The position numbers and the translations under genes are program-made. Below, one piece after another: positions 126-20,026 of a stretch of 25,338 nt of DNA. The DNA lies in the IMG/VR virus record IMGVR_UViG_3300030061_004364, positions 25,604-50,941 of that record; one strand, 5' to 3'. The stretch is from a virus. The notes below the pieces were generated by a model, which was given only the letters and a program-made list of their open reading frames with translations, searched no databases and had not been told where the DNA came from. The first letter of the stretch is position 1, and each line of letters opens with the position of its first letter.

Positions 126-137
126 ATATTACACTTT
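126..137 (-). promoter_or_regulatory. Putative phage late promoter motif
   Basis: Read on the minus strand this is AAAGTGTAATAT. It ends about 10 bases before the ATG at 115 and overlaps the stop codon of the phosphoesterase gene. It matches the motif found before the portal, protease, PhoH and other genes. Promoter function is inferred from recurrence and position. Confidence 0.5.
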
Positions 138-866
138 TTTTTTATTTTCCCAGTAAAATTTTTTTACATTAAATGTACCATCTAAATTTTCTACAATGTA
201 GCTGCACGAACTTATCCAATCGCCACAGTTAAAATATTCAATATTATTAATATTTTCGTAGTGTTTAGGGTGATGGATGTGTCCGCAGATCACTCCTTCG
301 CATTTGTACCTTTTAGCTTCTTGGGTAGTGAGCGCTTGAAAATTATTCAATTTAGGGTTTAAAAAGATAGACATATATTTTTCTCTCCAACCTAATTTAC
401 GTATAAGCTTATTTACTATCCTGTTGATTTCTAAAGCTCCATCATACAGCAAGTTGCTAAATTTCTGTAGGATTGAAAAAAACTTCAACCTTATAAAACC
501 ATCAAATTGGTCCCCATGAATCAATAAATATTTTTTACCATTAAGTGCTTTGTAAATTTTACGCCTGTTGATTTCTATATTTTTGCCTAATGCGAACTTT
601 TTCCACTTGCATAGAAAATCATCATGATTGCCCCATATGTAATATATTTTCCCTGCGCCGCGAGTAAATCGTAAAATCTTTTCTACAATAGCATTATTAT
701 CATTTTTCCATAAATATCCTTCATGGAAAGCGCAGGCATCAATCAAATCACCTACCACAAAAAGATTTTCGCATTCTATTTCTTCAATAAAAGCTAAAAA
801 TTTATCTGTTTTGCAGTGAGGGTATCCGAGGTGAATATCGGATATAAACAACGATTGGACCTTCAT
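129..866 (-). CDS. Calcineurin-like metallophosphoesterase (LpxH-like)
   Basis: A 245-residue protein with the full metallophosphoesterase signature: D10-x-H12, GDLID at 39-43, GNHD at 79-82, HGDQFD at 117-122 and GHIHHP at 195-200. These residues bind the two catalytic metal ions. The layout resembles LpxH/UDP-2,3-diacylglucosamine pyrophosphatase-type enzymes, so lipid A or another phosphoester/pyrophosphate is a possible substrate; the real substrate cannot be read from sequence. No signal peptide or membrane segment is seen, so it should be cytoplasmic. Its ATG (866-864) directly abuts the stop of the upstream glycosyltransferase gene, so the two are almost certainly co-transcribed and translationally coupled. 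Alternative: a generic phage phosphatase or nuclease of the same fold. Confidence 0.85.
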   Translation of the reverse strand: MKVQSLFISDIHLGYPHCKTDKFLAFIEEIECENLFVVGDLIDACAFHEGYLWKNDNNAIVEKILRFTRGAGKIYYIWGNHDDFLCKWKKFALGKNIEINRRKIYKALNGKKYLLIHGDQFDGFIRLKFFSILQKFSNLLYDGALEINRIVNKLIRKLGWREKYMSIFLNPKLNNFQALTTQEAKRYKCEGVICGHIHHPKHYENINNIEYFNCGDWISSCSYIVENLDGTFNVKKFYWENKKKV

Positions 867-1973
867 TTATTTAACTAAAAAATCACATTTTTCAAAAACT
901 GAATTAAGGCCATATTTTCTACCTTCAATCAAATGATTAAAATAATTTTCGTACATTTTAGAAACAGTATTAATAGTGAAATTTTCTTCAGCATAACGTC
1001 GACAAACTTCTGGCTTTATAATATCTATAGCATGCAAACTATGGAAAAACTCATTAAGAGATTTACACCTAAACCCTGTTTTGCCATGAATATTATATTC
1101 GCTTAATCCTCCCCAGTCAGTGGATAACACTGGAGTTCCAGAGATAAAAGCTTCTAACATAGACCACCCACAGGGCTCTGCATATAATGTTGGCATGATT
1201 AAAGCTTTAGCGTTAGCCAATAAATTTTTTCTTTCTTCATAACTAACAGTGTGAAGGTACTCAGCCAAATTATTATTTTTTACAAGTGTATTTTTTAAAT
1301 TTTGAGGGCCAACAAATTTAATAGGAATTTGGGTTGCTTGAGACAAGCTTTGCGCAATATGAATCCCTTTGCCGTCTACCATTCTCCCTAAAAATAAAAT
1401 ATAATTTTCTTTTTTTTCTTTATACAAAAAGTCTTCAAAATAAAAGCCCGGTCTAATAACATGGTCATTAAAAGAAGGGAAAGGAGACCCTTTATACATT
1501 TTATAGTGGAGTTTGTGCAGATGGGCATAACTTTCAAATACTTTAAAAGGAGCAAAAGCCGACTCGTATCCAATACTTGGTTCCACAATAATAAAATCAT
1601 CAGCTAATTTTTGACAGCATTCTAAATGCCCAATCCCCCAAAAAGCTAAAACAAAATCATTTTTACTTTGTTTATTTTTTTTAATTAATTTGGCTGCATT
1701 TAAATTAAATTCAGAATGAACTTTATTTTCGATACTTTGAGATAGAAAATTCTGCCATTGTTCTTTTTCGTACACTTCGTTATAAGTGGACGTAGAAACG
1801 ACATCAAAATGTTGGGTACATGGAACATTAGATTCAGGATGACCATAATGAAAAACTGTATGCCCACGTTCCGTCATAGACTTACAAAATTTATAAACTT
1901 TCTGAGTGAAAGCGCACAAAGTTATTTTTTTTTGTGTAGGGTGTACAGGTATGGCTAAAACATGAAAAATCAT
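867..1973 (-). CDS. GT4-family glycosyltransferase
   Basis: A 368-residue GT-B type glycosyltransferase. The C-terminal half carries the Glycos_transf_1 pattern: a sheet-loop LFLGRMVDGKG near residues 193-203, and EPCGWSMLEA near 266-275 with the two glutamates in E-x7-E spacing typical of retaining GT4 enzymes, followed by GTPVLSTDWGGLSE. The N-terminus (CAFTQKVYKFCKSM, then GHTVFHYG) resembles a group of glycosyltransferases I associate with aquatic phages. I chose the ATG at 1973; a frame-compatible TTG lies two codons upstream. The donor and acceptor are unknown; candidates are phage DNA, virion protein or host surface glycan. A sigma70-like promoter lies just upstream (1986-2013) and the phosphoesterase gene follows without a gap. 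Confidence 0.85.
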   Translation of the reverse strand: MIFHVLAIPVHPTQKKITLCAFTQKVYKFCKSMTERGHTVFHYGHPESNVPCTQHFDVVSTSTYNEVYEKEQWQNFLSQSIENKVHSEFNLNAAKLIKKNKQSKNDFVLAFWGIGHLECCQKLADDFIIVEPSIGYESAFAPFKVFESYAHLHKLHYKMYKGSPFPSFNDHVIRPGFYFEDFLYKEKKENYILFLGRMVDGKGIHIAQSLSQATQIPIKFVGPQNLKNTLVKNNNLAEYLHTVSYEERKNLLANAKALIMPTLYAEPCGWSMLEAFISGTPVLSTDWGGLSEYNIHGKTGFRCKSLNEFFHSLHAIDIIKPEVCRRYAEENFTINTVSKMYENYFNHLIEGRKYGLNSVFEKCDFLVK

Positions 1974-1985
1974 ATTCAATTTTAA

Positions 1986-2013
1986 ATTATAAAGGGAAAA
2001 TGGCTCAAGTCAA
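1986..2013 (-). promoter_or_regulatory. Sigma70-like promoter for the glycosyltransferase gene
   Basis: On the minus strand, TTGACT (2013-2008) and a perfect TATAAT (1991-1986) are separated by 16 bases. The expected transcript start falls near 1979, only a few bases before the ATG at 1973, so the leader would be very short. The -35 element overlaps the phage-type motif facing the other way for PhoH, making this a compact divergent control region. Confidence 0.6.
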
Positions 2014-2020
2014 GTGTAAT
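2012..2020 (+). promoter_or_regulatory. Putative phage late promoter motif before PhoH
   Basis: AAGTGTAAT ends five bases before the ATG at 2026 (and eight before a second in-frame ATG at 2029). No Shine-Dalgarno sequence fits in this space, so a leaderless or near-leaderless transcript is implied if this is a -10 type element. It would drive the packaging operon. Confidence 0.55.
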
Positions 2021-2025
2021 GTTTA

Positions 2026-2751
2026 ATGATGAGCAGAAGGAAAAAGTCCTCAGCGTCGGAAAAGATAATACCTCTTGCGGAAAGTAAATACAAGCTTTAT
2101 CTGAAAAATTTTGATTTAACTCAAAAACAACACGAATTTTTAAAAATAGCATTCGACAAAAATACTAAAATTATTTTTGTTTCAGGGCCGGCGGGCTCGT
2201 CGAAAACTTTTATTTCGATTTATGCCGCATTGCAATTATTTAATATGAATATGAATCAAGATTTGGTTTATGTTCGTACTATAGCAGAAAGCGGTGAAAG
2301 AAATTTAGGAAGCCTTCCCGGCGATGTGGATGAGAAATTCCATCCTTTTATGATGCCTATGCAAGATAAGTTGTGTGAGCTTTTATCTAAAGAGCAAATT
2401 AAAATGTTAATAGATGAAAAAATTATACAATGTGCTCCTATCAACTATTTACGAGGGGCAAGTTGGGATAATAAGTTAATCATAGCGGATGAATCTCAAA
2501 ACTTTACCAGAAAGGAATTAGTGACTTTAGTTACACGGATTGGTACTAATTCTAAATATTTTATATGTGGAGATCCAATGCAGTCTGACATTAATGGTAA
2601 GACAGGTTTTGCACCTGTAATGGAGATTTTTGACGATAATGAGTGTAAAGATAAAGGGATACATACTTTTCGATTCACAGAAGAAGACATTTTAAGAAGT
2701 GAAATTTTAAAATTTATTGTGAATAGACTGGAAAATAACCGTGTGAAATAA
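2026..2751 (+). CDS. phoH: PhoH-like ATPase
   Basis: A 241-residue P-loop ATPase of the PhoH family. Walker A is GPAGSSKT at 54-61, the family block NLGSLPGDVDEKFHPF lies near 93-108, Walker B is LIIADESQN at 151-159, and a YFICGDPMQSD sensor-like strand is at 178-188. PhoH-like proteins are common in phage genomes and are related to the helicase/RNase-associated PhoH of bacteria; the role in phage is not settled. The N-terminus is rich in Lys, Arg and Ser. It is the first gene of the plus-strand packaging operon, followed after 10 bases by the zinc-ribbon gene, and has the phage motif immediately upstream. Confidence 0.9.
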   Translation: MMSRRKKSSASEKIIPLAESKYKLYLKNFDLTQKQHEFLKIAFDKNTKIIFVSGPAGSSKTFISIYAALQLFNMNMNQDLVYVRTIAESGERNLGSLPGDVDEKFHPFMMPMQDKLCELLSKEQIKMLIDEKIIQCAPINYLRGASWDNKLIIADESQNFTRKELVTLVTRIGTNSKYFICGDPMQSDINGKTGFAPVMEIFDDNECKDKGIHTFRFTEEDILRSEILKFIVNRLENNRVK

Positions 2752-2761
2752 ATTATAAAAA

Positions 2762-3169
2762 ATGGCTAGTATATTTTGTCCTCAATGTGGAGCTAAAAAC
2801 AATTACAGCTTGAAGAAGCCCAACTTCTGTCAAAGCTGTGGTGAAACTTTTTCAGCTTTTGGTTTAACAAGCGATTCAAGCGCTGCACAAGGTAGCTATT
2901 CTACTGCTAACACGGCAATCCGAACAAATTCGGATGGTATTCCGGCGCTTTCAAAATTAGAGTACGACTTAGAGCTTCCAGAAAGCTCTAGTCAAACTTT
3001 TGAATCTCTAGTAAATAATCCTTTAAATCCTAATGAATTAAGGGATCGAAAGACCAATAAAGGTACACGATCAAAAATGTCTAAAGAAGACTACCTAAAA
3101 GAATCTCAAGCCAAATGTCGCAGTTCAAGGGGGAAATATAAAGACATTGGTGGTAGTGCGGAAGAATAA
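2762..3169 (+). CDS. Zinc-ribbon protein
   Basis: A 135-residue protein with an N-terminal zinc ribbon: C6-P-Q-C9-G and C23-Q-S-C26-G, the two CPxCG-like knuckles that bind one zinc ion. The remainder is low in hydrophobics and looks disordered, with a basic stretch around 95-125 (RDRKTNKGTRSKMSKEDY). Ribbons of this type occur in RNA polymerase-associated and nucleic-acid-binding proteins. It lies between PhoH and a sigma-like factor and overlaps the latter's start by about 20 bases. A role as a late-transcription accessory factor is attractive but purely inferred from position. The ATG at 2762 is the only good start. Confidence 0.7.
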   Translation: MASIFCPQCGAKNNYSLKKPNFCQSCGETFSAFGLTSDSSAAQGSYSTANTAIRTNSDGIPALSKLEYDLELPESSSQTFESLVNNPLNPNELRDRKTNKGTRSKMSKEDYLKESQAKCRSSRGKYKDIGGSAEE

Positions 3170-3872
3170 AAAACATAGCTACGAAGATAAATACGAGATA
3201 ATAGATAACGAGATAAGAAAAAGATATTATAAGTGGCATTTGCATGCATTAGCATGGCTAGATTTCGACGACGTATCTCAAATTATCCGTACTCATATTT
3301 ATAAGAAATGGGACCAATGGGACCAGCTTCGACCTATTGAGCCTTGGGTAAATAAAATTATATCCAATCAGCTCAAAAATATCTTACGTAATAATTATTC
3401 TAATTTTGCGCGGCCTTGCATAAGCTGTAAGCATAATCAGTCCAAAGAGCAAGCTATAGGTCAAGTAGCTAATTTATGCTCTTTGACTAAAAGTGGTTTG
3501 CAGTCAGGAGAATGCGCCGACTATGCAAAGTGGGAAAAAACACGAAAGCAAGCATACGATATTAAAATTCCTGTCTCTTTAGAGACAAATCCTTTTGATA
3601 GATATACCATCCCACAAGATCATTATAATATAGACGGGGCTGTTGGTTCGATGCATTTACGGATGAGAGTATATCTAAATGATCGCCATTACGTCATTTA
3701 CAAAATGCTTTTCATTGATCATATAGATGAAGAAACAGTGGCAAAAGTCTTAGGCTATAAAAGTAACGAGAAGGGCCGTAAAGCTGGCTACAAACAAATT
3801 AAAAATTTAAAAAATCTATATAAGAAAGTGGCAAGAAAAATTTGCGATGAAACCGATATATTTTTTGAATGA
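3147..3872 (+). CDS. Divergent sigma factor-like protein with Cys4 insert
   Basis: A 241-residue protein laid out like a minimal sigma factor. Residues about 33-83 (DFDDVSQIIRTHIYKKW, EPWVNKIISNQLKNILRNNY) resemble region 2. Residues about 170-232 (LNDRHYVIYKMLFIDHIDEETVAKVLGY then a basic helix KQIKNLKNLYKK) resemble a region 4 helix-turn-helix. Between them sit C91-x2-C94, C111 and C123, a probable zinc-binding insert not usual in sigma factors. It probably directs RNA polymerase to late promoters, as gp55 does in T4. No ATG is available: the frame opens after 3098 and starts are TTG 3147, GTG 3150 or GTG 3156, with a GGGGGA about 12 bases upstream. The start overlaps the zinc-ribbon gene, and the end overlaps the next gene as ATGA. 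Confidence 0.6.
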   Translation: MVVVRKNKKHSYEDKYEIIDNEIRKRYYKWHLHALAWLDFDDVSQIIRTHIYKKWDQWDQLRPIEPWVNKIISNQLKNILRNNYSNFARPCISCKHNQSKEQAIGQVANLCSLTKSGLQSGECADYAKWEKTRKQAYDIKIPVSLETNPFDRYTIPQDHYNIDGAVGSMHLRMRVYLNDRHYVIYKMLFIDHIDEETVAKVLGYKSNEKGRKAGYKQIKNLKNLYKKVARKICDETDIFFE

Positions 3873-4939: not shown

Positions 4940-5880
4940 TGGAAAGAGTTGTAGCTAAAATTTTTCCGTGCGCGGAGTGTAAAAAAGAATTTTCGAGTAG
5001 GGCATCATTACATAAACACCTAAAGCAGCATGGTTTAAATTTAGCCTCTTATTATACTAAATATTTTCCTCGAATAAATAAACTGACAGGAGATCCCTTG
5101 CCTTTTAAAAGATTTGAAGAATACTTCGAAAGAGATTTTTCTACAAAGCAGCAACTTTTAAAATGGTGCCAAAATACTCCTAAGGAGGAAGTAAAAGAAT
5201 ATGCCCTTTCGCTTCTTGAAAAAAGACATCTAAAAAAACAGAGGCAATATGGGCCTTTTCATTTGGAAACTAAAAATTCTTTTATGCCTCCTATCGCTCT
5301 TTATCGCGAACTTTTTGGAAGTTATAATGCCGCTTGCGAAGCCATAGGGTGCGAACCACTCTATCATAAAAATTTACCTAAAGATTTTTTTAGTAGAGAG
5401 ATGCCTCGGGATCTCACAATTGCGATAGATACTCGAGAACAAAAACCTTTAAAATTTGAAAGCTGTGAAAATGAGATTTTAAAATTAGATATTGGAGATT
5501 ATACCGCGCTCGGAGACTATTATGATTATACTTTTATAGACCGGAAGTCTGGCAATGATTTACAAGGGACGGTAGGCAAGCACAATATCGATAGGTTCAA
5601 AAGGGAAATAGAAAGAGCAACCGAAGTAGGAGCATATCTATTTGTAGTAATAGAATCTAGTGTGGAAAAAATAATTAAAGAGAATAAAATTTTTAATAGA
5701 AAAGCTAATATAGATTATACTTTAAGACAAATTAAAGATATATCCCATACTTACCCCCGATCGTGTCAATTTATTTTTGCAGAAAATCGGGAAGGGGCAG
5801 CTCGACTAATTCCTCGGATTTTAATGGCAGGTAAAAAAATTTGGAATACTGATATGCAATATTTTTTAGATAAAGAATGA
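4939..5880 (+). CDS. C2H2 zinc-finger / ERCC4-type nuclease
   Basis: A 313-residue modular nuclease. A textbook C2H2 finger is at the N-terminus: C11-x2-C14-x12-H27-x3-H31. The middle segment MPPIALYRELFGSYNAACEAIGC (about 116-138) resembles the homing-endonuclease-associated (HNH) repeat, a small DNA-binding unit. The C-terminal half is an ERCC4/XPF nuclease domain: D164-T-R-E167, LDIGDY around 183-188, and DRKSGNDL at 201-208, the counterpart of the ERKxxxD motif with Asp in the first position. It likely cuts branched or specific DNA during replication, recombination or packaging. An AGAGGA Shine-Dalgarno lies about 10 bases before the ATG. It lies between the putative small and the large terminase genes and overlaps both neighbours. 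Confidence 0.8.
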   Translation: MERVVAKIFPCAECKKEFSSRASLHKHLKQHGLNLASYYTKYFPRINKLTGDPLPFKRFEEYFERDFSTKQQLLKWCQNTPKEEVKEYALSLLEKRHLKKQRQYGPFHLETKNSFMPPIALYRELFGSYNAACEAIGCEPLYHKNLPKDFFSREMPRDLTIAIDTREQKPLKFESCENEILKLDIGDYTALGDYYDYTFIDRKSGNDLQGTVGKHNIDRFKREIERATEVGAYLFVVIESSVEKIIKENKIFNRKANIDYTLRQIKDISHTYPRSCQFIFAENREGAARLIPRILMAGKKIWNTDMQYFLDKE

Positions 5881-7742
5881 GTTGGACAGAAGGACATCAA
5901 CAGAGGCGTTGCCCTAAACTGAGGGATAACGAAGAGTTATTAAAGATAGAAGGTTTTCTAGACGAGAGGGAAGCTAAACTAGCTTTGTATGAATTTTTAA
6001 GAAATAATACCACCTTTGCTGCTGATTTAATTCTGGGAGTGAAGCTATTTCCTTTTCAACATATGGCTATCAAATCCATGTTTGAGACAGATTATTTTTT
6101 AGGGGTATGGAGCCGTGGAATGTCCAAGTCTTTTACTACGGGTATTTTTGCTGCATTAGATGCAATTTTAAACCAAGGGGTAGAGATAGGAATTCTTTCT
6201 AAATCTTTTCGACAAGCTAAAATGATTTTTAAAAAGATTGAGGATATTGCTAATAAACCTGAAGCCGGTTTTTTTCGACAATGTATTACTAAAACTTCTA
6301 AAAGTAATGATGAGTGGCTAATGGAAATTGGATCTAGTAGGATTCGTGCTTTACCTTTAGGTGATGGCGAAAAGCTTCGTGGCTTCCGCTTTCATAGGAT
6401 TATTATTGATGAATTTTTATTAATGCCCGAAAGAATTTATAATGAGGTGATAGTTCCATTCCTGTCTGTAGTAGAAAATCCCACTCAAAGAGATGACCTC
6501 TATAAATTAGAAAATCAACTTATCAAAGAAGGTCAAATGACCAATGCGGATAGATATGTATGGCCTAATAATAAGCTCATAGCTTTATCGTCAGCTTCAT
6601 ATAAGTTTGAATATCTTTATAAGCTTTATACTCAATTTGAGCATTTAATAACTCAAGAAAATCAAAAAGATAAAGCTTCCCGTTGCGTTATGCAGTATAG
6701 TTATGATTGCGCTCCTAAACAACTTTATGATGAAAATTTGATTAATCAAGCAAGAGCAACTATGAGTCAATCTCAGTTCGAACGAGAATTTGGAGCTATT
6801 TTTACGGATGATAGTTCAGGTTACTTTAAAACTAGCAAAATGGCTTTATGCACGGTACCAGACGGAGAGTTACCCTGCGTTGAAGCTCAAGGAGATCCGG
6901 ACGCCGAATACATTTTAGCCTTTGACCCCTCATGGTCTCAAACTGAAAGTTCAGATGATTTTGCTATTCAAATTTTAAAGCTTCACCCAGAGGAGCAAAA
7001 AACTACATTAGTTCATGGCTATGCTTTATCGGGAACCTCTTTAAAACATCATATTAATTATTTTCTATTTTGTTTGGAAAATTTCAACGTAGTGGCTATA
7101 TGTGGTGATTACAATGGAGGAGTTCAATTTTTACAAGCCTGTAATGAAAGCGAACTCTTTAAAAGTAAAAAAGTTAAGTTAAAAACTATAGATGTTAATT
7201 TAGACAAGCCAGAAGAATATCAAAGTGATTTGCGTACATATAATTCTCAATATAATAAAGGAGAGTATCGTTATGTTATTTTGCGCAAGCCTACGAGCAA
7301 TTGGATTAGGCAGGCTAACGAGTTATTACAAGCAAATTTTGATCATCGGCGAATTCACTTTGCGAGTCGCGCAATAGATGATTCTTACACAAAACAAACA
7401 AATAAAAATATTTCAATTTTAGATATTAAGTTTTTACGCAGTTCTGAAGAGACTAAACAAACAGCAGGAGCTAAAATGATTGATTTCATTGAGCATCAAT
7501 CAGATATGATGGACCTAACTAAGAATGAATGTGCTTTAGTTCAAATCACTACCACTTCTCAAGGGACTCAAACTTTTGATTTGCCTTCTAATCTACGTCG
7601 GCAAACTGGCCCTGACAAAGCCCGAAAGGATTCTTATTCTGCATTAGTTTTGGCCAATTGGATGGCTAAAATTCATCTTGACTCTAAATCTCAACCCGCA
7701 GAAGATGTAATAGAGACTTTTGAGCCTACTTTTATTTTATAG
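5877..7742 (+). CDS. terL: Terminase large subunit
   Basis: A 621-residue DNA-packaging motor protein. The ATPase half has a Walker A variant, SRGMSKS at 79-85, Walker B RIIIDEF at 174-180, and the coupling-type segment LIALSSASYK near 234-243. The nuclease half has FDPS with D350, GDYNGG with D411, and a C-terminal RKDSYSALVLANW block with D585, the usual acidic residues of the RNase H-like terminase nuclease. It docks on the portal and translocates DNA into the prohead. The ATG overlaps the stop of the nuclease gene by four bases (ATGA). The gene ends the packaging operon; a weak hairpin follows at 7775-7800. Confidence 0.92.
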   Translation: MSWTEGHQQRRCPKLRDNEELLKIEGFLDEREAKLALYEFLRNNTTFAADLILGVKLFPFQHMAIKSMFETDYFLGVWSRGMSKSFTTGIFAALDAILNQGVEIGILSKSFRQAKMIFKKIEDIANKPEAGFFRQCITKTSKSNDEWLMEIGSSRIRALPLGDGEKLRGFRFHRIIIDEFLLMPERIYNEVIVPFLSVVENPTQRDDLYKLENQLIKEGQMTNADRYVWPNNKLIALSSASYKFEYLYKLYTQFEHLITQENQKDKASRCVMQYSYDCAPKQLYDENLINQARATMSQSQFEREFGAIFTDDSSGYFKTSKMALCTVPDGELPCVEAQGDPDAEYILAFDPSWSQTESSDDFAIQILKLHPEEQKTTLVHGYALSGTSLKHHINYFLFCLENFNVVAICGDYNGGVQFLQACNESELFKSKKVKLKTIDVNLDKPEEYQSDLRTYNSQYNKGEYRYVILRKPTSNWIRQANELLQANFDHRRIHFASRAIDDSYTKQTNKNISILDIKFLRSSEETKQTAGAKMIDFIEHQSDMMDLTKNECALVQITTTSQGTQTFDLPSNLRRQTGPDKARKDSYSALVLANWMAKIHLDSKSQPAEDVIETFEPTFIL

Positions 7743-7774: not shown

Positions 7775-7800
7775 CAAAGTAACTTTCAAAAGTCACTTTG
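7775..7800 (+). terminator. Hairpin after terL, possible weak terminator
   Basis: CAAAGTAACTT (7775-7785) pairs with AAGTCACTTTG (7790-7800) around a TCAA loop, with one G-U type mismatch in the 11-base stem. It is AT-rich and followed by TTAACTTTAA rather than a clean T-run, so termination would be inefficient. It sits between terL and the portal promoter motif. Confidence 0.35.
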
Positions 7801-7808
7801 TTAACTTT

Positions 7809-7827: not shown

Positions 7828-9855
7828 ATGGCGGGAAAAAGAAGATATACAAAGCGTTCGGACTATTGGCAAAAGTTCAAAGAAAAAGAGCAGCCTCTTG
7901 AAAATTTGATAGTATCTAATGCTAAAGCTGATTATGAGCCTCAATTAGTCGGAGAGTCATTTTATAATCATGAGTCTAAAGCTTATGCCCGTAGTGGATC
8001 TGGTGGAAGTAGCACCACCGCAAGGCGTAATAATATTGCAATAGCCCCTCAGTTATTCAAATATGCCAATATCCGCATGGGTATGTTGCCCTTTGAGTAT
8101 GGAGCAGATGGGGTTAATGTACGAGACGCGATTGAATTATGTCAAAAAGCTTACTGTAATATTTCTGTTTTCAGGAACGCTATAGATATGATGTCAGATT
8201 TTGCTAATTCTACTTTATATTTGGAAGGAGGCAGTGCAAAGTCACGCGCATTTATTTCTTCATGGCTCAAGAAGATAAAAATCTGGAGTTTAAAAGACCA
8301 ATTTTTTAGAGAGTTTTACCGTAGCGGCAACGTCTTCCTTTATACAATTAATAGTAAAATTAATGTAGATGATTTTTCTAAAGTTCGTAATCTTGGTTTA
8401 AATTTAGCTACTAACAAAATCCCTATCAAATATATTCTTTTAAATCCTTTTGATGTTATGGCTCGTAGAGCCACAGCATTTGACAGAGGTTTGTATGTTA
8501 AAGTATTAAGTGAATACGAAGCAGAAAGATTAAGAGACCCCAAGACAGATGAAGATAAAGAGTTATTTGACGCTTTAGATCCAGATATTAAAAAAAGAAT
8601 TGAGGTTGGCTCATGGACTCCCAATGGCTTAAAAGTTTCATTAGATCCTAAAAGGCTAAAAATGGCTTTTAATAAAAAACAAGACTATGAGCCTTTTGCG
8701 GTTCCTTTTGGCTTTCCTGTTTTAGATGACATCAACTTCAAAATGGAGATGAAGAAAATTGATCAGTCCATTTGTAGAACAATTGAAAATGTTGTGCTAT
8801 TAATCACGATGGGCACTACGCCTGATAAAGGGGGAGTTAATCCTCGTAATATTCGGGCTATGCAGAATTTATTTTCTAATCAAAGTGTGGGTCGTATACT
8901 GGTAAGCGATTATACTACTAAAGCTGAGTTTATTATACCTGATTTAAATAAGGTTATAGGGCCGGCGAAATATGATGTAGTGAACCAAGACATTAAAGAA
9001 GGTTTGCAAAATATAATCTTAAATCAAGAAAAATTTGCTAGCACCGAAGTTAAAGCTCAGATGTTTTTACAGCGTTTAAAAGAATCTCGGGATGCTTTTA
9101 TAAACGAATTTCTTCAACCTGAAATAAAACAAATTTGTAAAGATTTTGGATTAAGAGATGAGCCGCTCGCCAAATTTGAAACTATCGATCTTCAAGATCA
9201 AACGCAAGTTCAACGTACTATTACTAGGATGATGGAATTAGGTATTCTTACTCCGACGGAGGGAATAAAAGTCATTGAAACTGGAGTTTTCCCAAGCGGT
9301 AAAGAATTGGAAGAAGCTCAAGAAAAATTTGTTGAGCAGCGACAAAAAGGATTTTATAACCCTATTGTAGGCGGAACGCCAGTTCCTTTGGATTTAGACG
9401 AAGAAATAGAATTGGAAGAAATTAAACATCCTCGTAGCATGCAACTGTTAGAGAAACCTACCAATAAAGGACCGCGAAGCGCGGCCAATCCCGGTAGGCC
9501 CGTGGGTTCTAAATCTTTGGCGAATAGTACTTATTCCGTAACTTCCATCAAAGAAATAGCCGAAAAAACTAATAATCTTTTTACTACTCTTGCAAATGAA
9601 GCAAAGAAAGCTTTCAAGAAAAAACGGTTGAGTAAAATGCAAAAAGAGATGCTCGAGAGGGTATGTGAATCCGTAGTGGTTGCTAAAAACTCAACAGAGT
9701 GGATGAAAGCTGGAAAAGAATGTTTAGCCAATCCGGACAAAATTATGGAATTGAAGCCTATGCAAGAAGTGCTCAATATCAGCGCAGAGCATGAGTTAGA
9801 TGATTACGCTGCAGCAATTTTGTATCATAGCAGAAAAAATTCTCTCAATAAATAA
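7828..9855 (+). CDS. Portal protein
   Basis: A 675-residue portal subunit. The segment around 110-170 (VFRNAIDMMSDFANSTLYLEGG, then SSWLKKIKIWSLKDQFFREFYRSGNVFLY) is a typical portal block, and the middle has the usual wing/stem order with KIDQSICRTIENVVLLITMG and a crown rich in helices. Portals form the dodecameric ring at one capsid vertex through which TerL pumps DNA. I chose the ATG at 7828 (MAGKRRYTKR) because the motif AAGTGTAAT lies just before it. The last 130 residues are unusual in being basic and Ala/Lys-rich with a GRP-type AT-hook-like motif (NPGRPVGSK) and may be a crown extension that contacts DNA. The gene lies between terL and the prohead protease, the standard order. Confidence 0.9.
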   Translation: MAGKRRYTKRSDYWQKFKEKEQPLENLIVSNAKADYEPQLVGESFYNHESKAYARSGSGGSSTTARRNNIAIAPQLFKYANIRMGMLPFEYGADGVNVRDAIELCQKAYCNISVFRNAIDMMSDFANSTLYLEGGSAKSRAFISSWLKKIKIWSLKDQFFREFYRSGNVFLYTINSKINVDDFSKVRNLGLNLATNKIPIKYILLNPFDVMARRATAFDRGLYVKVLSEYEAERLRDPKTDEDKELFDALDPDIKKRIEVGSWTPNGLKVSLDPKRLKMAFNKKQDYEPFAVPFGFPVLDDINFKMEMKKIDQSICRTIENVVLLITMGTTPDKGGVNPRNIRAMQNLFSNQSVGRILVSDYTTKAEFIIPDLNKVIGPAKYDVVNQDIKEGLQNIILNQEKFASTEVKAQMFLQRLKESRDAFINEFLQPEIKQICKDFGLRDEPLAKFETIDLQDQTQVQRTITRMMELGILTPTEGIKVIETGVFPSGKELEEAQEKFVEQRQKGFYNPIVGGTPVPLDLDEEIELEEIKHPRSMQLLEKPTNKGPRSAANPGRPVGSKSLANSTYSVTSIKEIAEKTNNLFTTLANEAKKAFKKKRLSKMQKEMLERVCESVVVAKNSTEWMKAGKECLANPDKIMELKPMQEVLNISAEHELDDYAAAILYHSRKNSLNK

Positions 9856-9857: not shown

Positions 9858-9866
9858 AAGTGTAAT
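9858..9866 (+). promoter_or_regulatory. Putative phage late promoter motif before the protease gene
   Basis: AAGTGTAAT starts three bases after the portal stop codon and ends 12 bases before the ATG at 9879. An ATG at 9871 is followed at once by TAA, so it is not a start. No Shine-Dalgarno sequence is present. Confidence 0.55.
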
Positions 9867-9878: not shown

Positions 9879-11471
9879 ATGGATAATCAATTCAAATATA
9901 AAACAGAGTATACCTTTGATATCTATGCCACTTCGGATTTAGAGAGCGATCTAGATATAAGTCGAGCTTCATTAGATAACCTTAAACCTCTTATCCCCAA
10001 ATCTATTGATTTGGATCGAAATGTAGATTTAATTGGAGCTGCCTTTAATGCCGCGGTGGTAAATAAATTCAATAGGAATGGGGACGGAATTGATTCTGAA
10101 ACTGCCGTGGACGTTATTGATTATTTTATTAATAAGCCCACAAATATAGAGCATAAAAAGCATAAGGTAGTTGGTCATATCGTCAACGCGGGCTTTACTG
10201 ATTTAGATAATGAAAAAATTATTGGTAATGGCGCAGCGCTTAAAGAAAAAGATCCTTATTTTATATCTTTGGCTGCTGTAGTTTACAAAACTGTTAATAA
10301 AGATTTTGCTGATGTTTTACTTCAGTCAAGTGAACAAGGAAATCCTTTTCATAATAAGATTTCAGCAAGTTGGGAGTTAGGATTCAATGAATATGTTTTA
10401 GCTTTAGGATCTCAAGACTTGAAAGAAGCTGAAATTATCACTAATCCTACTCAGATCAATGAAATGAAAAAATACCTGAAATCTTTCGAAGGGTCAGGTA
10501 AACTAAATGATGGCACACCAATTTACCGATTAGTTAAAGGGGAAGTTTTCCCTTTAGGCATTGGGTTTACTACTAATCCAGCCGCTAACGTAAGCGGCCT
10601 TATAGTAGAAAAAAATATTGATTTGGAGCTTAATGATAAGAGAGACGACGTAGAAGCTTCAGAAAATTTTAAAAATAATATTTTAAAAATTTCCCAAAAG
10701 GAAAATAATACTGTAAAAAATACTAATACTATGGATATAACAGAGTTCAAAACTGAGTTCGAGAAGGTTCTCGATTCGAAGTTAGCGGACAATGCGGAAT
10801 TCACTCAAGAAGCTGTAGCCAGTGTCGCTTCCCATGTAATCGATAAGATTCGTGAGAAAGATGCTGAGTTTCGTGCTGAAAGAGAGGCTGTTGAAACTGA
10901 AAAAGTTCAAGCCAAGAAAGACGCAGAGGAAGCAAAAGCTTCGATTGAAGACCTCCAGAAAAAGTTAGAGGAAGCCACTGAGAAGATTACTTCCTTAGAG
11001 TCCTCTATCTACGCTGCTGCGGCAGAAGAGTTATTTAATAGCAGAATGGGAGCTATCGACGAGCTTTACGACCTTTCCGACCAAGACCGTGTGGTTTTGG
11101 CGAACGAAGTGAAGACTCTTGAGAGCGCCGATCCTGCCTTTGAAGATTACCAGTCTAAATTGGCATCCTTACTTCAACATAAGAGCAAAGCTTTTAAGTT
11201 GGAGCAAGAAAAACAATTTGAGGCAAAAGTTCAGGAAGAACTGGAGAAACGTTTAGCTAGTACTACTTCGGAAGAAGCAACAGCTAGTAGCGCTCCTGCA
11301 GTCGAGCCTGAGGTAGCTGAAGTTCAAGCAACTGTCGAAGAAGTTGTTGAAAATGTTGAAGTCCCGCACTCTAGCATGGCCAACAATAATGAGGCTTCTT
11401 CCACGGAAGAATCTTTAACTGACAGGTTCAAAAAGGCCTTTAGCACAGAAAGTATTTCTATAACCTACTAA
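9879..11471 (+). CDS. Prohead protease fused to scaffold region
   Basis: A 530-residue protein with two parts. Residues about 1-235 look like a phage prohead serine protease: NKPTNIEHKKHKVVGHIVNAGF with a candidate catalytic His (H92), and KISASWELGFNEY with candidate Ser (S162). This is the His/Ser order of T4 gp21/S78-like enzymes. Residues from about 285 to the end form a long charged coiled-coil scaffold (REKDAEFRAEREAVETEKVQ... EDLQKKLEEATEKITSLE), then an Ala/Glu/Val-rich linker and a basic tip RFKKAF. Codon use changes near residue 285, from AT-ending codons to GAG/AAG/TTC like the capsid gene, suggesting a separately translated scaffold. Catalytic assignments are by pattern only. Confidence 0.75.
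   Translation: MDNQFKYKTEYTFDIYATSDLESDLDISRASLDNLKPLIPKSIDLDRNVDLIGAAFNAAVVNKFNRNGDGIDSETAVDVIDYFINKPTNIEHKKHKVVGHIVNAGFTDLDNEKIIGNGAALKEKDPYFISLAAVVYKTVNKDFADVLLQSSEQGNPFHNKISASWELGFNEYVLALGSQDLKEAEIITNPTQINEMKKYLKSFEGSGKLNDGTPIYRLVKGEVFPLGIGFTTNPAANVSGLIVEKNIDLELNDKRDDVEASENFKNNILKISQKENNTVKNTNTMDITEFKTEFEKVLDSKLADNAEFTQEAVASVASHVIDKIREKDAEFRAEREAVETEKVQAKKDAEEAKASIEDLQKKLEEATEKITSLESSIYAAAAEELFNSRMGAIDELYDLSDQDRVVLANEVKTLESADPAFEDYQSKLASLLQHKSKAFKLEQEKQFEAKVQEELEKRLASTTSEEATASSAPAVEPEVAEVQATVEEVVENVEVPHSSMANNNEASSTEESLTDRFKKAFSTESISITY
10731..11471 (+). CDS. Possible nested scaffold protein (internal in-frame start)
   Basis: An in-frame ATG at 10731 (residue 285 of the protease ORF; product starting MDITEFKTEF) would give a 246-residue protein consisting only of the scaffold coiled coil. 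Support comes from the sharp change to highly expressed-type codons exactly there, and from TGTAAA at 10712-10717, a weak match to the phage motif 13 bases upstream. The known precedent is lambda C/Nu3, where scaffold is made from an internal start in the protease gene. No convincing Shine-Dalgarno is adjacent; an AAAAGGAAAA lies about 30 bases upstream. Confidence 0.45.
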   Translation: MDITEFKTEFEKVLDSKLADNAEFTQEAVASVASHVIDKIREKDAEFRAEREAVETEKVQAKKDAEEAKASIEDLQKKLEEATEKITSLESSIYAAAAEELFNSRMGAIDELYDLSDQDRVVLANEVKTLESADPAFEDYQSKLASLLQHKSKAFKLEQEKQFEAKVQEELEKRLASTTSEEATASSAPAVEPEVAEVQATVEEVVENVEVPHSSMANNNEASSTEESLTDRFKKAFSTESISITY

Positions 11472-11482
11472 CACTATAATAT
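11472..11482 (+). promoter_or_regulatory. Promoter-like motif before the decoration/capsid genes
   Basis: CACTATAATAT with TATAAT at 11475-11480, five bases before the ATG at 11486. It is a variant of the phage motif in which GTG is replaced by CAC; the very short distance to the start codon is kept. It would drive the two-gene capsid unit. Confidence 0.45.
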
Positions 11483-13403: not shown

Positions 13404-13412
13404 AGTTGTAAT
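13404..13412 (+). promoter_or_regulatory. Putative phage late promoter motif (AGTTGTAAT variant)
   Basis: AGTTGTAAT, followed by ATT, ends seven bases before the ATG at 13420 and lies just after the capsid terminator. It is needed for transcription of the next gene if the terminator is efficient, which supports promoter function. Confidence 0.5.
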
Positions 13413-13419: not shown

Positions 13420-13836
13420 ATGGCTGCAAAGAAAAAAGCTAAAAAGACGATAAAAGCTAGTAAAAAGAAGACCTCTTTAGAAGAAATCGAAAATTTTACT
13501 ACTGGCAAAACGACAGACAATGATTCTATAGAGAGGGTCAAAGAGCTGGAAGAAGTACTGGGCATCAAAGCCGTTAATCATTTTGGCACTAATGACCCAA
13601 ATATTTTTGAAAACAACTTAAAAGAATCTAATTTAAGTGACCTTCAGAACCTTGCCATGAAAATAGGACTTTTCCCAGATGGCTCTAAACCTCGTCTTAA
13701 AGAGAAGTTAAGACAGGAATTTAAACGAGTAACTCGTGGAAGTCGCACAATTGCATTACAGCAACCTTTATCGATTGCTGATCCTTCTCATCCTAATCAC
13801 GAAAGAGCTAAGAAATTAATGAGCGAAGGTTTCTAG
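13420..13836 (+). CDS. Small basic protein with SAP-like motif
   Basis: A 138-residue protein with a strongly basic N-terminus (about eleven Lys in the first 18 residues) and a segment at about 68-102, ESNLSDLQNLAMKIGLFPDGSKPRLKEKLRQEF, that matches the pattern of a SAP domain: two helices with a GL-x-x-x-G-x-K/R-x-x-L turn. SAP domains bind AT-rich DNA. The rest is charged and probably flexible. It is located between the capsid gene and a neck gene. It may be a virion-packaged DNA-binding protein or a head completion factor; function is not established. The start ATG is set by the AGTTGTAAT motif seven bases before it. Confidence 0.6.
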   Translation: MAAKKKAKKTIKASKKKTSLEEIENFTTGKTTDNDSIERVKELEEVLGIKAVNHFGTNDPNIFENNLKESNLSDLQNLAMKIGLFPDGSKPRLKEKLRQEFKRVTRGSRTIALQQPLSIADPSHPNHERAKKLMSEGF

Positions 13837-13841: not shown

Positions 13842-13850
13842 AGTGTAAAT
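13842..13850 (+). promoter_or_regulatory. Putative phage late promoter motif (AGTGTAAAT variant)
   Basis: AGTGTAAAT, followed by ATAT, ends seven bases before the ATG at 13858. It begins six bases after the previous stop codon. No Shine-Dalgarno sequence is present. Confidence 0.5.
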
Positions 13851-13857: not shown

Positions 13858-14433
13858 ATGCCGGACAGACAAAAAACGCCATATTTGGTAAGCACGATAG
13901 CTACGGGCATTTTTAATGATGAGTTTGACTCTGATACAGGTTATGCAACACTTGCCTCTATATCTGGATGGTTAGCAAATAACGTAGGTTTATTAAATAC
14001 TATTGTTTATACTGCCTTTTCGGGATCAGGAGTTGCTGCTACGCCAAGCGACTTGATCGACGATACCGTGGTTCAACCGTCGGGAAACTTTCGATTTGAA
14101 GAATCTGATATCTACAAGCAAGTTTATTTAGCTAATTACTATACTAAAAAAGCCAGAGGTGTCCTAAGAAACATTGATACTGCGGTAGATTTTATCAGCT
14201 TAAGAGAAGGTGACTCCATGATTACCCGCACAAATAAGAATGAAATAGCTAAAACTTATCGAGGTTTCGCAAAGGACGCACAGGAGCGCCTAGATGACCT
14301 TGTAGCGCGTTATAATATTTATGAGGCACAACCCTTACAAGCAGCCGGAAACGACGCTTCTATAGACTCTAGCGGCGATATATATGCTTCTTACGATTGG
14401 AGGCCTAGATCTTTCACAGGGCCTTATAGTTAA
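13858..14433 (+). CDS. Putative head-tail adaptor (neck) protein
   Basis: A 191-residue protein. Its helical core (TLASISGWLANNVGLLNTIVYTAF, then YKQVYLANYYTKKARGVLRN, then TYRGFAKDAQERLDDLVARYNIY) and its position after the capsid gene fit a small head-tail adaptor that binds under the portal. The family is not recognised with certainty. The C-terminus is short and polar. It is the last plus-strand head gene before the moron and the minus-strand tail block. Confidence 0.5.
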   Translation: MPDRQKTPYLVSTIATGIFNDEFDSDTGYATLASISGWLANNVGLLNTIVYTAFSGSGVAATPSDLIDDTVVQPSGNFRFEESDIYKQVYLANYYTKKARGVLRNIDTAVDFISLREGDSMITRTNKNEIAKTYRGFAKDAQERLDDLVARYNIYEAQPLQAAGNDASIDSSGDIYASYDWRPRSFTGPYS

Positions 14434-14470: not shown

Positions 14471-14479
14471 TTTCCCTTT

Positions 14480-14795: not shown

Positions 14796-16220
14796 TTAGC
14801 TTGGAGTGGTGGGCACACCACTATACTTACTGGCAGTTTTCTTGGCTTCTCCAAGCGGCCAGTAATTGACAGTGCGGAATCGATCGTATGTTCCTTCCAT
14901 GAAGATACCATTGGCGGTATCTGATGATCCGCCCACTTGAGTAGTAAACGTAATATCGACAGTCTCATTGTCTCCAATTGATGCACTGTAGCTTTCGCTA
15001 TCTAGTCGAGCGCCTTTTACTTTAATAACCATTGCGCTATCGCCTTTTCCTCCAGTACTCGTATTGGCTCTAGCTAATGTAAGCGTAAAGTCATGCTTTT
15101 GCGTATTAGATAAAGCGTCGAAAACGTTATTCTTTTGGAGCTCAGATACAATAGCAGATATACTTACTGAAACATCCATAGGAAGATCAATAACACGAGC
15201 ATAACCAAAGGTATTACCAAGTCTTCCGAGAACCGTACGGCTCATTGGAACAGAAACTCCAAAGCTTTGAAGGTGACATTTGCCATCTCCACTGAAGTCT
15301 GCAAAACCTTGATAATCGCCTGAATTGCTCATTGCGAAGGTAATATCGCCCGGACGTAAAGCACTAATCATGTCTGAGAACTGACCCGTTGTATTAAGGG
15401 TAGTTTCCGCATTGCTCTTGCCTTGCACCATGAAAATAGTGTTATTTTGTTTTGCACCATTTACTTCGTCCACCGCCGGAATGAGCGGGAACTGATTTTG
15501 GTCGGCAGCACTACTAGTAGCAGCATCTCCACTAATGAAGTCGTCAACTTTAATATTGAAAGCTTCTACTGTTACACTAGCTGTAGGAATTGCACCTACA
15601 GATGCATCAAGAGAATAATCACTTATAAAGCCATTACCTATTGAAATAACATCAAAGGCAGCTGCAGCATCACTAATTGTATCTCCTTGAACATCATCAC
15701 CTTCTTTAGAGGTAACAATGAAGAAGTTATTTCCTTGCGGATCAGCAATAAGCCCTGAAATTGCAGATGCACCGGAAATACAGCCGTCACCGGTAGATCC
15801 TTGGAAAGTGGCTGAAGAGCCATTTCTGCCTACAGTGTAAGAATTAGTAGGAATATTAAATCCTAATAATCTTTCGTTGCCGCCATCAGTAAGGTAATAG
15901 TTGAAATCTAGTCCAACAGTTGGAGATTCCATGACGATCGAATCTAATCTAGCTAATCTACCAAATTCATTAATATCTTGACGATTTATAGTGAAATTGA
16001 AGTTTGCTGATTGAATTCTATGAAGTGGCTCTAGCAAGGAACGATGGAAACCTTTAGCTTGCTCAACGGCTGTAAAGCCTGTTACGGCTCCCCAGTCTGA
16101 GCTGTCTGCTACGTCTCCAGTTCCCCCTACTAAGCCACCCCCCGTTTGCAGGTGATAACCTGTGGATGAAGGCGCCATATAAAGCGCCTGACTCTGATAA
16201 ATTACTCTGTTTCTGGCCAT
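14796..16220 (-). CDS. Putative major tail (tube) protein
   Basis: A 474-residue beta-rich protein. The N-terminal part contains EPLHRIQSANFNFTINRQDINEFGRLARLDSIVMESPTVGLDFNYYLTDGGNERLLGF (about 64-121), a pattern I associate with tail tube proteins of large phages: strands that pair around a tube lumen and a charged hairpin. The rest, with many Gly/Ser/Thr/Asp residues, may be an extra surface domain. It has no membrane segment or signal peptide. It is the last of four minus-strand genes and has an own motif-like element upstream, which fits an abundant structural protein. No sheath gene is visible here. Alternative: another large virion protein. Confidence 0.6.
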   Translation of the reverse strand: MARNRVIYQSQALYMAPSSTGYHLQTGGGLVGGTGDVADSSDWGAVTGFTAVEQAKGFHRSLLEPLHRIQSANFNFTINRQDINEFGRLARLDSIVMESPTVGLDFNYYLTDGGNERLLGFNIPTNSYTVGRNGSSATFQGSTGDGCISGASAISGLIADPQGNNFFIVTSKEGDDVQGDTISDAAAAFDVISIGNGFISDYSLDASVGAIPTASVTVEAFNIKVDDFISGDAATSSAADQNQFPLIPAVDEVNGAKQNNTIFMVQGKSNAETTLNTTGQFSDMISALRPGDITFAMSNSGDYQGFADFSGDGKCHLQSFGVSVPMSRTVLGRLGNTFGYARVIDLPMDVSVSISAIVSELQKNNVFDALSNTQKHDFTLTLARANTSTGGKGDSAMVIKVKGARLDSESYSASIGDNETVDITFTTQVGGSSDTANGIFMEGTYDRFRTVNYWPLGEAKKTASKYSGVPTTPS

Positions 16221-16245: not shown

Positions 16246-16255
16246 ATTTACAACT
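16246..16255 (-). promoter_or_regulatory. Putative late promoter motif before the tail tube gene
   Basis: On the minus strand AGTTGTAAAT, preceded by an A-run, lies about 25 bases before the ATG at 16220. It resembles the variants at 13404 and 13842 but is farther from its gene. A TATACT at 16229-16224 lies nearer the ATG and could be an alternative -10-like element. Confidence 0.35.
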
Positions 16256-17125: not shown

Positions 17126-17727
17126 TAAAATGTTTTATTTTCTAATTGTTTTATTTTTTTATAGTAATTGTTCAGCAAAGCCGACATATAGGAAGTATTA
17201 GAAAACCTTCCTCCTCTTATCTTACTATCAGTTTGTATGGCAAAACCTGATTTAGATCGAGCTAATCTAGTATTTTTTACTAAATATTCCCCAAAGCCTG
17301 AAATGCCGCGTTCAATTCCTCTAGCCCAGCTTCTTCCCATTGCCCATGGCAACGGAGTGGCTAAAAAAACTTCTTCTTTAGTAGGAACTTCGATAGTAAT
17401 TTGGATTCGATCTCTCGTTATATTATATCTTATATCATAGGTTTCTAATAAGTTTCGTAAAGGTTTGATAGGATTACTTCCTGAGTCAAAGCCGATATAT
17501 GTAAAAAGATTGCCTACCCCTCCTAAAGTGCCGCTAATATTGGTAGACCGTGCTCCTCCTTCTATTTCTTGAGTAACAGGATGGGCATTAAAAGAAGTTA
17601 TAAATTCTTTATAAATATCCTTAAAATGATCCTCTAACTGTCTTTTTAAATAGACTGTGACACTTTTATCCCGAAAAGCTTGCTGGTTTATTTTGCGTCG
17701 ATCTTGAGTTGAGAGTATAGCAGCCAT
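17125..17727 (-). CDS. Putative neck/tail completion protein
   Basis: A 200-residue protein, N-terminally helical and basic (MAAILSTQDRRKINQQAFRDKSVTVYLKRQLEDHFKDIYKEFITSF), followed by GGARSTNISGTLGGVGNLFTYIGFDSGSNP and a beta segment ITIEVPTKEEVFLATPLPWAMGRSWARGIERG. The arrangement is reminiscent of small head-tail joining or HK97 gp10-like proteins, which I cannot confirm without a profile search. It overlaps both neighbours by one base (TAATG at each side), so all genes in this block are coupled. Cytosolic assembly factor or virion neck protein. Confidence 0.5.
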   Translation of the reverse strand: MAAILSTQDRRKINQQAFRDKSVTVYLKRQLEDHFKDIYKEFITSFNAHPVTQEIEGGARSTNISGTLGGVGNLFTYIGFDSGSNPIKPLRNLLETYDIRYNITRDRIQITIEVPTKEEVFLATPLPWAMGRSWARGIERGISGFGEYLVKNTRLARSKSGFAIQTDSKIRGGRFSNTSYMSALLNNYYKKIKQLENKTF

Positions 17728-18179
17728 TAGTTCATTTTCTTTAACATCACTGTGTAAAATTTAGTGTCAAAAAGACCGTGACCTCTAAAGTCACTATAAA
17801 TGGAAAACCTTTGGTTATCAAATTCTACCCTTTTAGCATCAGAAACAGTATCATAATCTGAAGCTTTGATTTTCATTCTCACTAGCCCTTCGGGAATATA
17901 AACTTTTAACTGATTGGGGGATTTAGATGATGTAAAATAATCTTCATCCATTTGTGCTCCATATTGAATACGAGCTTGAATAGTGCTACTTTGCTCAGTA
18001 TATGTGATGGAAGTTGTAGCTCCTGCGTTTCCATAGATAGAGTTAAAGTCTACATTAGCACTAGAAACTGTTTCTATAGGATCTTTAATAATGGTGACAG
18101 CTCGCGAAAAAGTATCCGCTTGGTCATCCATCACACTATGCAATACTGCTTTATCGCTATCTGAGATTAGACTTGCCAT
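17727..18179 (-). CDS. Putative head-tail connector/stopper protein
   Basis: A 150-residue protein and the first gene of the minus-strand tail block. It begins MASLISDSDKAVLHSVMDDQADTFSRAVTIIKDPIETV and ends in a beta-rich part (LKVYIPEGLVRMKIKASDYDTV, KRVEFDNQRFSIYSDF). Size and beta content fit small head-closure proteins. I start it at the ATG at 18179; a GTG at 18194 in the same frame is part of the promoter-like motif AAGTGTATAATAT and is unlikely to be translated. Function is inferred from position between head and tail genes. Confidence 0.5.
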   Translation of the reverse strand: MASLISDSDKAVLHSVMDDQADTFSRAVTIIKDPIETVSSANVDFNSIYGNAGATTSITYTEQSSTIQARIQYGAQMDEDYFTSSKSPNQLKVYIPEGLVRMKIKASDYDTVSDAKRVEFDNQRFSIYSDFRGHGLFDTKFYTVMLKKMN

Positions 18180-18183
18180 ATCT

Positions 18184-18196
18184 ATATTATACACTT
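18184..18196 (-). promoter_or_regulatory. Putative late promoter motif for the minus-strand tail block
   Basis: On the minus strand AAGTGTATAATAT, with TATAAT ending six bases before the ATG at 18179. It is the longer form of the phage motif, also seen before the tape measure gene. It faces away from a related element at 18218-18237. Confidence 0.55.
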
Positions 18197-18217
18197 TTTA
18201 AAAAACCTTTGGAAAAA

Positions 18218-18237
18218 AAGTGTTTATTTAATATAAT
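18218..18237 (+). promoter_or_regulatory. Promoter-like element before the tail chaperone gene
   Basis: AAGTGT at 18218-18223 and TATAAT at 18232-18237 occur on the plus strand, 12 bases before the ATG at 18250. Here the two halves of the motif are separated by eight bases instead of overlapping. Together with 18184-18196 it forms a divergent control region of about 70 bases. Confidence 0.4.
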
Positions 18238-18249
18238 TTTTACGTACTT

Positions 18250-19041: not shown

Positions 19042-20011
19042 TATTAATTATCGGACTCTCTTTAAAGATTTAGTTTTCGGTTGGTCTAAGGTTTCTCATG
19101 ATAATCAGACAGCTTACCTTAAGCATTTATCTATATTTGATCAGGTTGATATAGAAGAGGTACGAGAAGATTTTTTTAATAAAGCTAAAGATAGAGGACT
19201 TCCCACGAACGAGGAAGTTCTTTTGCGTTTGGATGAAGAGGGATTATGGGCTTCCCATGACCAAGGTAAAATTAAAGAACAAGAAGATTATATAAAAAAT
19301 GCGGAGATTTCCAAAAAACAACTTTACCTTAAGGCTGATATTGACAGAACTAACAATGACATTAAAGAAGCAAACAAAAAGCTAGTCCACTTGGAGACCA
19401 CTAAATCCTCTTTAATGGGTCAAACTTGTGAAAGATATGCAGATGGCAGAGTTTCTGATCATTATGTTATCCAATCATTATATAAAGATGAGAATTTAGC
19501 ACACCCATTTTATACTTCTGAAGAAATAGATGATCTAACTCGCAAACAAATGGGGGCTATCGTGCAATCTTACAATAAAATTTATTCTGATTTTACTGAT
19601 GTTAACATACAGGCAGTTACTCTACAAGACTTTTATCGTCCTTATATGCCTTTTTGCGAAGATGTAACAAATATGTTTCCTAAACCATTATTTGAACTTT
19701 CTTTAAATCAGGTAAAATTAGTGATTTATAGCAGAATGTTTAAAAATATTTTTGAACAATATCAAAACATTCCTGAAAGCATAGCAAAAGACCCTCAAAA
19801 AATTGTAGATTACGTCAACGCCCAAGAAAAAGCTAAAGAAAATTTATCAAATATAGATAAAGATGGAGCCTCGACCATCATGGGAGCAAAAAATGAGGAT
19901 TACGAATATTTAGGCATTAAGAAAACCTCTGAGAACTCTCTGTCGGCCAAGTTACGTGAAAAAGGTGGAAAAATGGACATGAAAGATTTAATGCACGCGC
20001 TAAAGGCTTAA
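18995..20011 (+). CDS. Putative tail assembly chaperone, second ORF
   Basis: A 338-residue protein, helical and polar, with a likely coiled coil around 85-140 (KEQEDYIKNAEISKKQLYLKADIDRTNNDIKEANKKL). It overlaps the first ORF by 47 bases and lies in the +1 frame relative to it; an in-frame TAA directly precedes its ATG (18995). A fusion product would therefore need a +1 (or -2) frameshift, but no clear slippery site is visible, so independent or coupled initiation is at least as likely. No Shine-Dalgarno is seen at the ATG. The gene ends 28 bases before the tape measure start. Known chaperone pairs often work as a short form and a frameshifted long form. Confidence 0.5.
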   Translation: MTSTEQQEQKKNKKNDINYRTLFKDLVFGWSKVSHDNQTAYLKHLSIFDQVDIEEVREDFFNKAKDRGLPTNEEVLLRLDEEGLWASHDQGKIKEQEDYIKNAEISKKQLYLKADIDRTNNDIKEANKKLVHLETTKSSLMGQTCERYADGRVSDHYVIQSLYKDENLAHPFYTSEEIDDLTRKQMGAIVQSYNKIYSDFTDVNIQAVTLQDFYRPYMPFCEDVTNMFPKPLFELSLNQVKLVIYSRMFKNIFEQYQNIPESIAKDPQKIVDYVNAQEKAKENLSNIDKDGASTIMGAKNEDYEYLGIKKTSENSLSAKLREKGGKMDMKDLMHALKA

Positions 20012-20015
20012 AAAA

Positions 20016-20026
20016 AAGTGTATAAT
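20016..20026 (+). promoter_or_regulatory. Putative late promoter motif before the tape measure gene
   Basis: AAGTGTATAAT, preceded by an A-run, ends 13 bases before the ATG at 20040. It is the same long form as at 18184-18196. No Shine-Dalgarno sequence follows. Confidence 0.55.

Follow-up and report, generated by a model that had tools for sequence, protein, structure and literature searches.

A conserved GTGTA box that probably serves as a late promoter in a group of uncultured phages encoding a sigma-like factor of their own

A short box, GTGTAAT or GTGTATAAT, lies a few bases 5' of start codons in a virus genome and in its environmental relatives. The motif is real, as its position and conservation show, which its frequency in the window alone does not. 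We read the box as a phage late promoter that is recognised by the sigma factor which the phage itself encodes, whether directly or in concert with other proteins, and give this reading a probability of roughly 85%. The initial annotation had proposed a phage-specific, single-element, −10-like late promoter, and this is still the best reading, given the enrichment upstream of genes on the sense strand, the placement before the first genes of transcription units, the lack of a −35 element and the presence of a sigma gene.

The window, as we call the whole stretch of 25,338 nucleotides that was analysed, covers bases 25604–50941 of a 50,941-base virus record and carries a terminase, a PhoH gene, a portal-like gene, a tape-measure gene and further virion-region genes. 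Gene starts were called with a simple gene caller of our own. A terminase search matched at least 599 stretches, at least 597 of which were confirmed, indicating a group of hundreds of environmental contigs; the 80 loci listed share 71–90% protein identity, and the DNA upstream of orthologous genes was compared between the window and these listed relatives. A megablast search against phages gave no match, a conserved virion-region protein of the group had none among 50,697 sequenced phage records, and the literature held nothing relevant on GTGTAAT as a phage promoter. One possible host clue is that the sigma gene of a relative and a portal-size gene lie on a 72-kb contig (L117, PBIO01000004.1) from a Halobacteriovorax bin, possibly through mis-binning; the sigma is also present in L116, from an uncultured-bacterium bin, which could again be mis-binning. 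Other observations on the group include tmRNA genes, unusual for phages, in the long relatives G024 and G025 (L185:9003–9400 and L194:13988–14425; Rfam RF00023, 130 and 110 bits), a manA RNA in the window's own record that is barely above the gathering score (RF01745, L007:11199–11379, minus strand), a tRNA-Cys gene with anticodon GCA (L007:9768–9841, minus strand), and a phage accessory gene for a Nol-like carbamoyltransferase (L008:1570–3264, plus strand; PHROG 1601, E=5e-102).

The sites and genes of the window that are discussed below are the following.

126–137, minus strand: late box AAAGTGTAATAT; exact core, with the top PWM score of the record (15.2 bits)
start ~113, minus strand: ORF served by the 126–137 box, cut by a scaffold gap (a run of 10 N at G000:25594–25603, directly before window base 1)
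1986–2013, minus strand: sigma70-type promoter TTGACT-N16-TATAAT of the glycosyltransferase gene 867–1979; TTGAC in 16/16 listed orthologs, −10 more variable
2012–2020, plus strand: late box AAGTGTAAT before phoH; kept in 16/16 listed orthologs and also found at phoH of distant relatives
2026–2751, plus strand: phoH, first gene of the unit phoH...sigma...terL (PHROG 170, E=1.3e-64)
3147–3872, plus strand: ECF-like sigma factor, probable reader of the box (Sigma70_r2; Foldseek; position relative to terL conserved)
5877–7742, plus strand: terminase large subunit (PHROG 2, E=4.8e-28; 28% to Microcystis phage MaeS)
7809–7817, plus strand: late box AAGTGTAAT before the portal-like gene (ATG 7828); core in nearly all listed orthologs
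7828–9855, plus strand: portal-like protein (weak tblastn match to the portal of Bacillus phages Slash/Stills/Staley, E=1e-4)
9858–9866, plus strand: late box AAGTGTAAT before gene 9879–11471; GTGTAAY/A in orthologs
11472–11482, plus strand: "variant" site of the initial annotation, rejected; conserved in no listed ortholog
13404–13412, plus strand: late box, TTGTAAT form, before gene 13420–13836, directly after a GC-rich hairpin with a T-run
13842–13850, plus strand: late box AGTGTAAAT before gene 13858–14433; kept in most orthologs
16246–16255, minus strand: probable late box AGTTGTAAAT (GTTGTAAAT form), 34 nt before the ATG of gene 14796–16220
18184–18196, minus strand: late box AAGTGTATAATAT before gene 17727–18179; identical core in G001, G004 and G005
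18218–18237, plus strand: "split form" of the initial annotation; varies among relatives
20016–20026, plus strand: late box AAGTGTATAAT before the tape-measure gene; kept in G001, G004 and G005
20040 onward, plus strand: tape-measure gene (PhageMin_Tail, E=4.3e-22)

All eleven sequences quoted in the initial annotation are present at the positions given there. Counted over the whole window, AAGTGTAAT with at most one mismatch occurs 11 times against 10.5 expected in shuffled DNA, and AGTGTATAAT occurs 3 times against 2.3 expected, so that neither is in excess. Since mismatch counts in the window are at chance level, the claim was tested by position and in relatives. In the window, AGTGTA[AT] lies between −34 and −6 in 5 of the 21 called genes, as against 0.09 expected, and none of 2000 simulations reached 5. 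Across 453 upstream regions from 14 records, 54 contain AAGTGTA (2.1 expected) and only one has it on the opposite strand, the distance from core to start codon being mostly 12–22 nt. Motif discovery on the upstream regions of relatives, which the initial annotation had proposed as a check, recovered the same element: de novo expectation maximisation from random seeds, run on relatives only with the window's record held out, converged on AAAGTGTA(A/T), with the consensus AAGTGTA(A/T). When this relatives-only matrix was applied to the held-out record, 12 of 1938 upstream positions scored at least 8 bits, compared with 2 of 39,568 positions on the sense strand of genes; scrambling the matrix columns gave a mean of 1.8 upstream matches in that record, with a maximum of 8. 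Equal occurrence inside genes and in both orientations had been named as what would speak against the motif, and the densities found are far from equal. Over eleven records the density of AGTGTA(A/T) is 4.0 per kb directly 5' of starts on the same strand, as against 0.07 (sense) and 0.09 (antisense) inside genes and 0.20 in other intergenic DNA. In eight records, 60 of 105 exact-core matches are inside genes or not before a called start, and the density there is low.

Comparison of orthologous genes showed that the box is kept where the flanking DNA has diverged. Nine of the eleven sites are supported, either because orthologs match at that position or because an exact core stands at a fitting distance. 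The core GTGTAAY/A precedes the phoH, 7828, 9879 and 13858 genes in most or all listed orthologs, and before the portal-like gene it is present even in relatives with 55% sigma identity. Just 5' of that box, at about 7775–7808, there are AAAGTnACTTT / AACTTT repeats that most relatives keep. The gene at 13420 has TTGTAAT, or GTGTAT/GTGTAAT instead, across orthologs: the box at 13404–13412 is the same in L034 and reads GTGTATACTA or TTTGTGTAATATAG in others. Farther upstream of gene 14796–16220 (minus strand) lies a AAAAAGTTGTAAATT block that several orthologs keep, and in its place L013/G002 have a canonical AAAGTGTATAATATAACGTGG. The proposed site at 11472–11482 reads TTAAAACATT/AATAAACTACT in orthologs, and we rejected it for lack of conservation. 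The site at 18218–18237 is doubtful; relatives read AGTATATAT or CTGTATAT there. In the interval 1986–2020, two promoters stand head to head, the −35 element of the minus-strand promoter overlapping the phoH late box by two bases (AA/TT).

The box consists of one −10-like element, which can be written GTG + TA(t/a)(a/t)aT and takes the forms GTGTATAAT and GTGTAATAT. These two forms align without gaps, GTG being followed by TATAAT or by TAATAT-like bases, and by our reading of the counts this alignment puts the invariant T and A at positions 1 and 2 of a −10 hexamer. In agreement with the proposal that there is no −35 partner, no column between −45 and −6 exceeded 0.11 bit in 87 non-redundant sites. 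The claim that the element stands before almost every structural gene was overstated; what it marks is the first genes of transcription units. With first-in-unit genes defined by a divergent neighbour or a gap of at least 40 nt, the box precedes 51 of 144 such genes and 1 of 133 operon-internal genes (p=7e-16), and the gene at 12181, for example, has no box and carries a Shine-Dalgarno-like AAAGGA instead. Several copies directly follow hairpin-plus-T terminators. This position, together with the first-in-unit placement, fits a promoter and not a translation signal.

A 194-kb relative, G024, whose sigma is 55% identical, was analysed alone. Its most enriched upstream words were AGTGTAA/GTGTAAT and CTTGACA. 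With a sigma70-type promoter defined as TTGAC plus a TATAAT-like hexamer 16–18 nt away, 27 genes have the box, 26 have a sigma70-type promoter and none has both. Functions were assigned by scanning ten members of each set with PHROGs and some members with Pfam. The genes with sigma70-type promoters include RNR, a DnaB-like helicase, DNA polymerase, a dNMP kinase, the clamp loader and rIIA/rIIB, and the box genes include virion and tail proteins, a tail-fibre chaperone domain and PhoH. Such a division is what one would expect of early and late genes, and from it we infer that the box acts late.

The sequence and predicted structure of ORF 3147–3872 suggest a diverged ECF-like sigma factor. Sigma70_r2 (PF04542) was found in 22 of 22 sigmas of relatives, with a best E of 1.3e-5 and several matches above the curated cut-off, and the gene is present in 19 of 22 records. 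Two AlphaFold models were of middling confidence (mean pLDDT 67–70), and the top Foldseek matches of both were all sigma factors or holoenzyme sigma chains, among them the Mycobacterium tuberculosis ECF factor SigH (probability 0.98) and sigma32; the best E was a modest 7e-3, and the alignments span both sigma domains. The protein is laid out as sigma2 at about residues 12–87, a linker with invariant cysteines (C91, C94, C111 and C123), and a C-terminal part with an invariant RKAGYKQ-KNLK in a helical domain, which is predicted at 162–235 (PF08281 in 3 of 22 sigmas, with weak E). The sequence ends in a conserved DI(F) tail, often DIFFE or DIFYE, whose conservation may come in part from an overlap with the start codon of the next gene. 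A region-4-like domain (a C-terminal HTH) seems to be present, yet there is no conserved −35 element. The sigma matched nothing among the 50,697 sequenced phage records, and its profile found nothing in the PDB at E≤1 when built from 22 sequences and one irrelevant match when built from 37. A search for an Rpb1-type polymerase gene was negative in nine of nine records, possibly fragments, and positive in 14 of 14 control genomes, so the partner is likely to be the core polymerase of the host. The protein probably directs RNA polymerase to the box.

Could the boxes be chance AT-rich matches picked by eye? The one-mismatch counts over the window equal the shuffled expectation, as such an account would predict, yet position, strand, conservation and the held-out tests refute it for the nine supported sites, and we consider it practically negligible, although it stands for 11472–11482. 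It is also very improbable that the box is a translation signal, that is, a ribosome-binding element in place of the Shine-Dalgarno sequence. Copies 9–14 nt before the start codon would suit that role, as would the scarcity of Shine-Dalgarno-like sequences, which were found in 2 of 78 box genes as against 45 of 272 genes without a box. However, operon-internal genes need ribosomes as well and almost never have the box, some copies lie 22–34 nt from the start codon, many come after intrinsic terminators, the −10 boxes of sigma70 promoters stand at this very position in front of early genes, and the phage sigma is conserved alongside the box.

Two further explanations keep the box as a promoter and assign it to another reader. 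That the host sigma70 reads it as an extended −10, with a different role left to the phage sigma, is suggested by the TATAAT contained in one form (AAGTGTATAAT), but we judge it improbable: the invariant part is GTGTA and not TATAAT, most copies are GTGTAAT, a poor TATAAT, and in G024 the genes under true sigma70 promoters have early functions and do not overlap with the box genes. Nor is there the TGn directly before TATAAT that an extended −10 would have, as GTG stands before TA where sigma70 would want TGn, and the invariant positions differ. Recognition by a second phage protein, be it another sigma, an activator or a phage polymerase, we regard as unlikely; much of the genome is unannotated and T4 needs gp33 and gp45 besides gp55 (PMC2988020), but a conserved sigma homolog co-occurs with the box, and the search for an Rpb1-like subunit gave the negative result described above. 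We favour a late promoter read by the phage sigma.

The spacing of both promoter classes bears on the length of the leaders, a point absent from the initial annotation. In 12 of 18 sigma70-type promoters of G026 and 10 of 29 of G024, the −35 element begins exactly 35 nt upstream of the start codon, which would place +1 at or beside the A of ATG. For 14 of the 27 late boxes of G024, the first G lies 14 nt upstream of the ATG, matching the place of a −10, and in the window's own record the box lies 13–22 nt before the start codon, giving leaders of about 0–8 nt. As both classes abut the start codon, early and late mRNAs are probably leaderless or nearly so, and starts are predicted to coincide with the start codon or to fall no more than a few bases from it. 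In the mechanism that we propose, early genes would be read first from sigma70-type promoters (TTGACA-N17-TATAAT). The sigma of ORF 3147–3872 would then most likely join the host RNA polymerase core, and the complex would be directed to the box, which lies about 12–22 bp 5' of the first start codon in each late unit. Transcription would begin at that codon or a few bases ahead of it and yield leaderless or nearly leaderless mRNAs. A fuller version of this scheme is tentative and, in our view, rather doubtful: besides leaderless early and late mRNAs, one fused sigma would do the jobs of both gp55 and gp33 of T4, sigma2 reading GTGTA, the C-terminal HTH serving to dock on the polymerase and not to read a −35, and the DIF(F/Y)E tail binding the replication clamp, which would couple late transcription to DNA replication. 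A homolog of the clamp loader is present, and the profile of the T4-type clamp (PF09116) matched nowhere, the controls included. The promoter grammar obtained here from sequence sorts the genes of an uncultured water-borne phage family into early and late classes, narrows the predicted start sites to a few bases and supplies a candidate promoter–sigma pair.

The likeness to T4-type late promoters that had been proposed holds for the single −10-like box and the phage sigma, but the nearest known system is phiEco32 and not T4. The sigma of phiEco32, gp36, uses a single box, tAATGTAtA, without a −35 element and with starts 6–8 bp downstream (PMC4281155, PMC8948821), and gp36 is said to have no region 4, which would explain the absent −35 (PMC8948821). 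Shared with phiEco32 are a phage-encoded ECF-type sigma, early genes read from sigma70 promoters, and a single-element box with a TGTA core and no −35, TGTA(t)A being common to tAATGTAtA and GTGTA(T)A. Here, in contrast, a G and not an A precedes TGTA, many units have a copy of the box, which adjoins the start codon, and the sigma has a cysteine-containing linker and a probable C-terminal HTH. Phage 7-11 likewise encodes a sigma for its late genes (gp47, with region 4), but its promoters are bipartite, GTAAtg-(16)-aCTA, a feature that the authors tie to region 4 (PMC8948821), whereas a single element is conserved here. Profile comparison gave no meaningful similarity to gp36 (hhalign probability 0.1–0.25%) and none to T4 gp55, for which the sequence of record X01804 was used, so the sigma would work like both, with no demonstrated place in either family. 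With T4 the group shares the single −10-like box, a phage sigma, late genes on both strands, and a short hydrophobic-acidic tail at the end of the sigma, SLDFLYEAND in gp55, where it binds the clamp (PMC2988020), and often DIFFE or DIFYE here. It differs from T4 in the probable sigma4-like domain fused to the sigma and, as had been noted from the start, in the sequence of the box, which has the consensus AAGTGTA(A/T) and is not of the TATAAATA type. The group thus adds to the known systems a sigma with a region-4-like domain that seems to use one-element promoters, and a case in which both promoter classes lie against the start codon.
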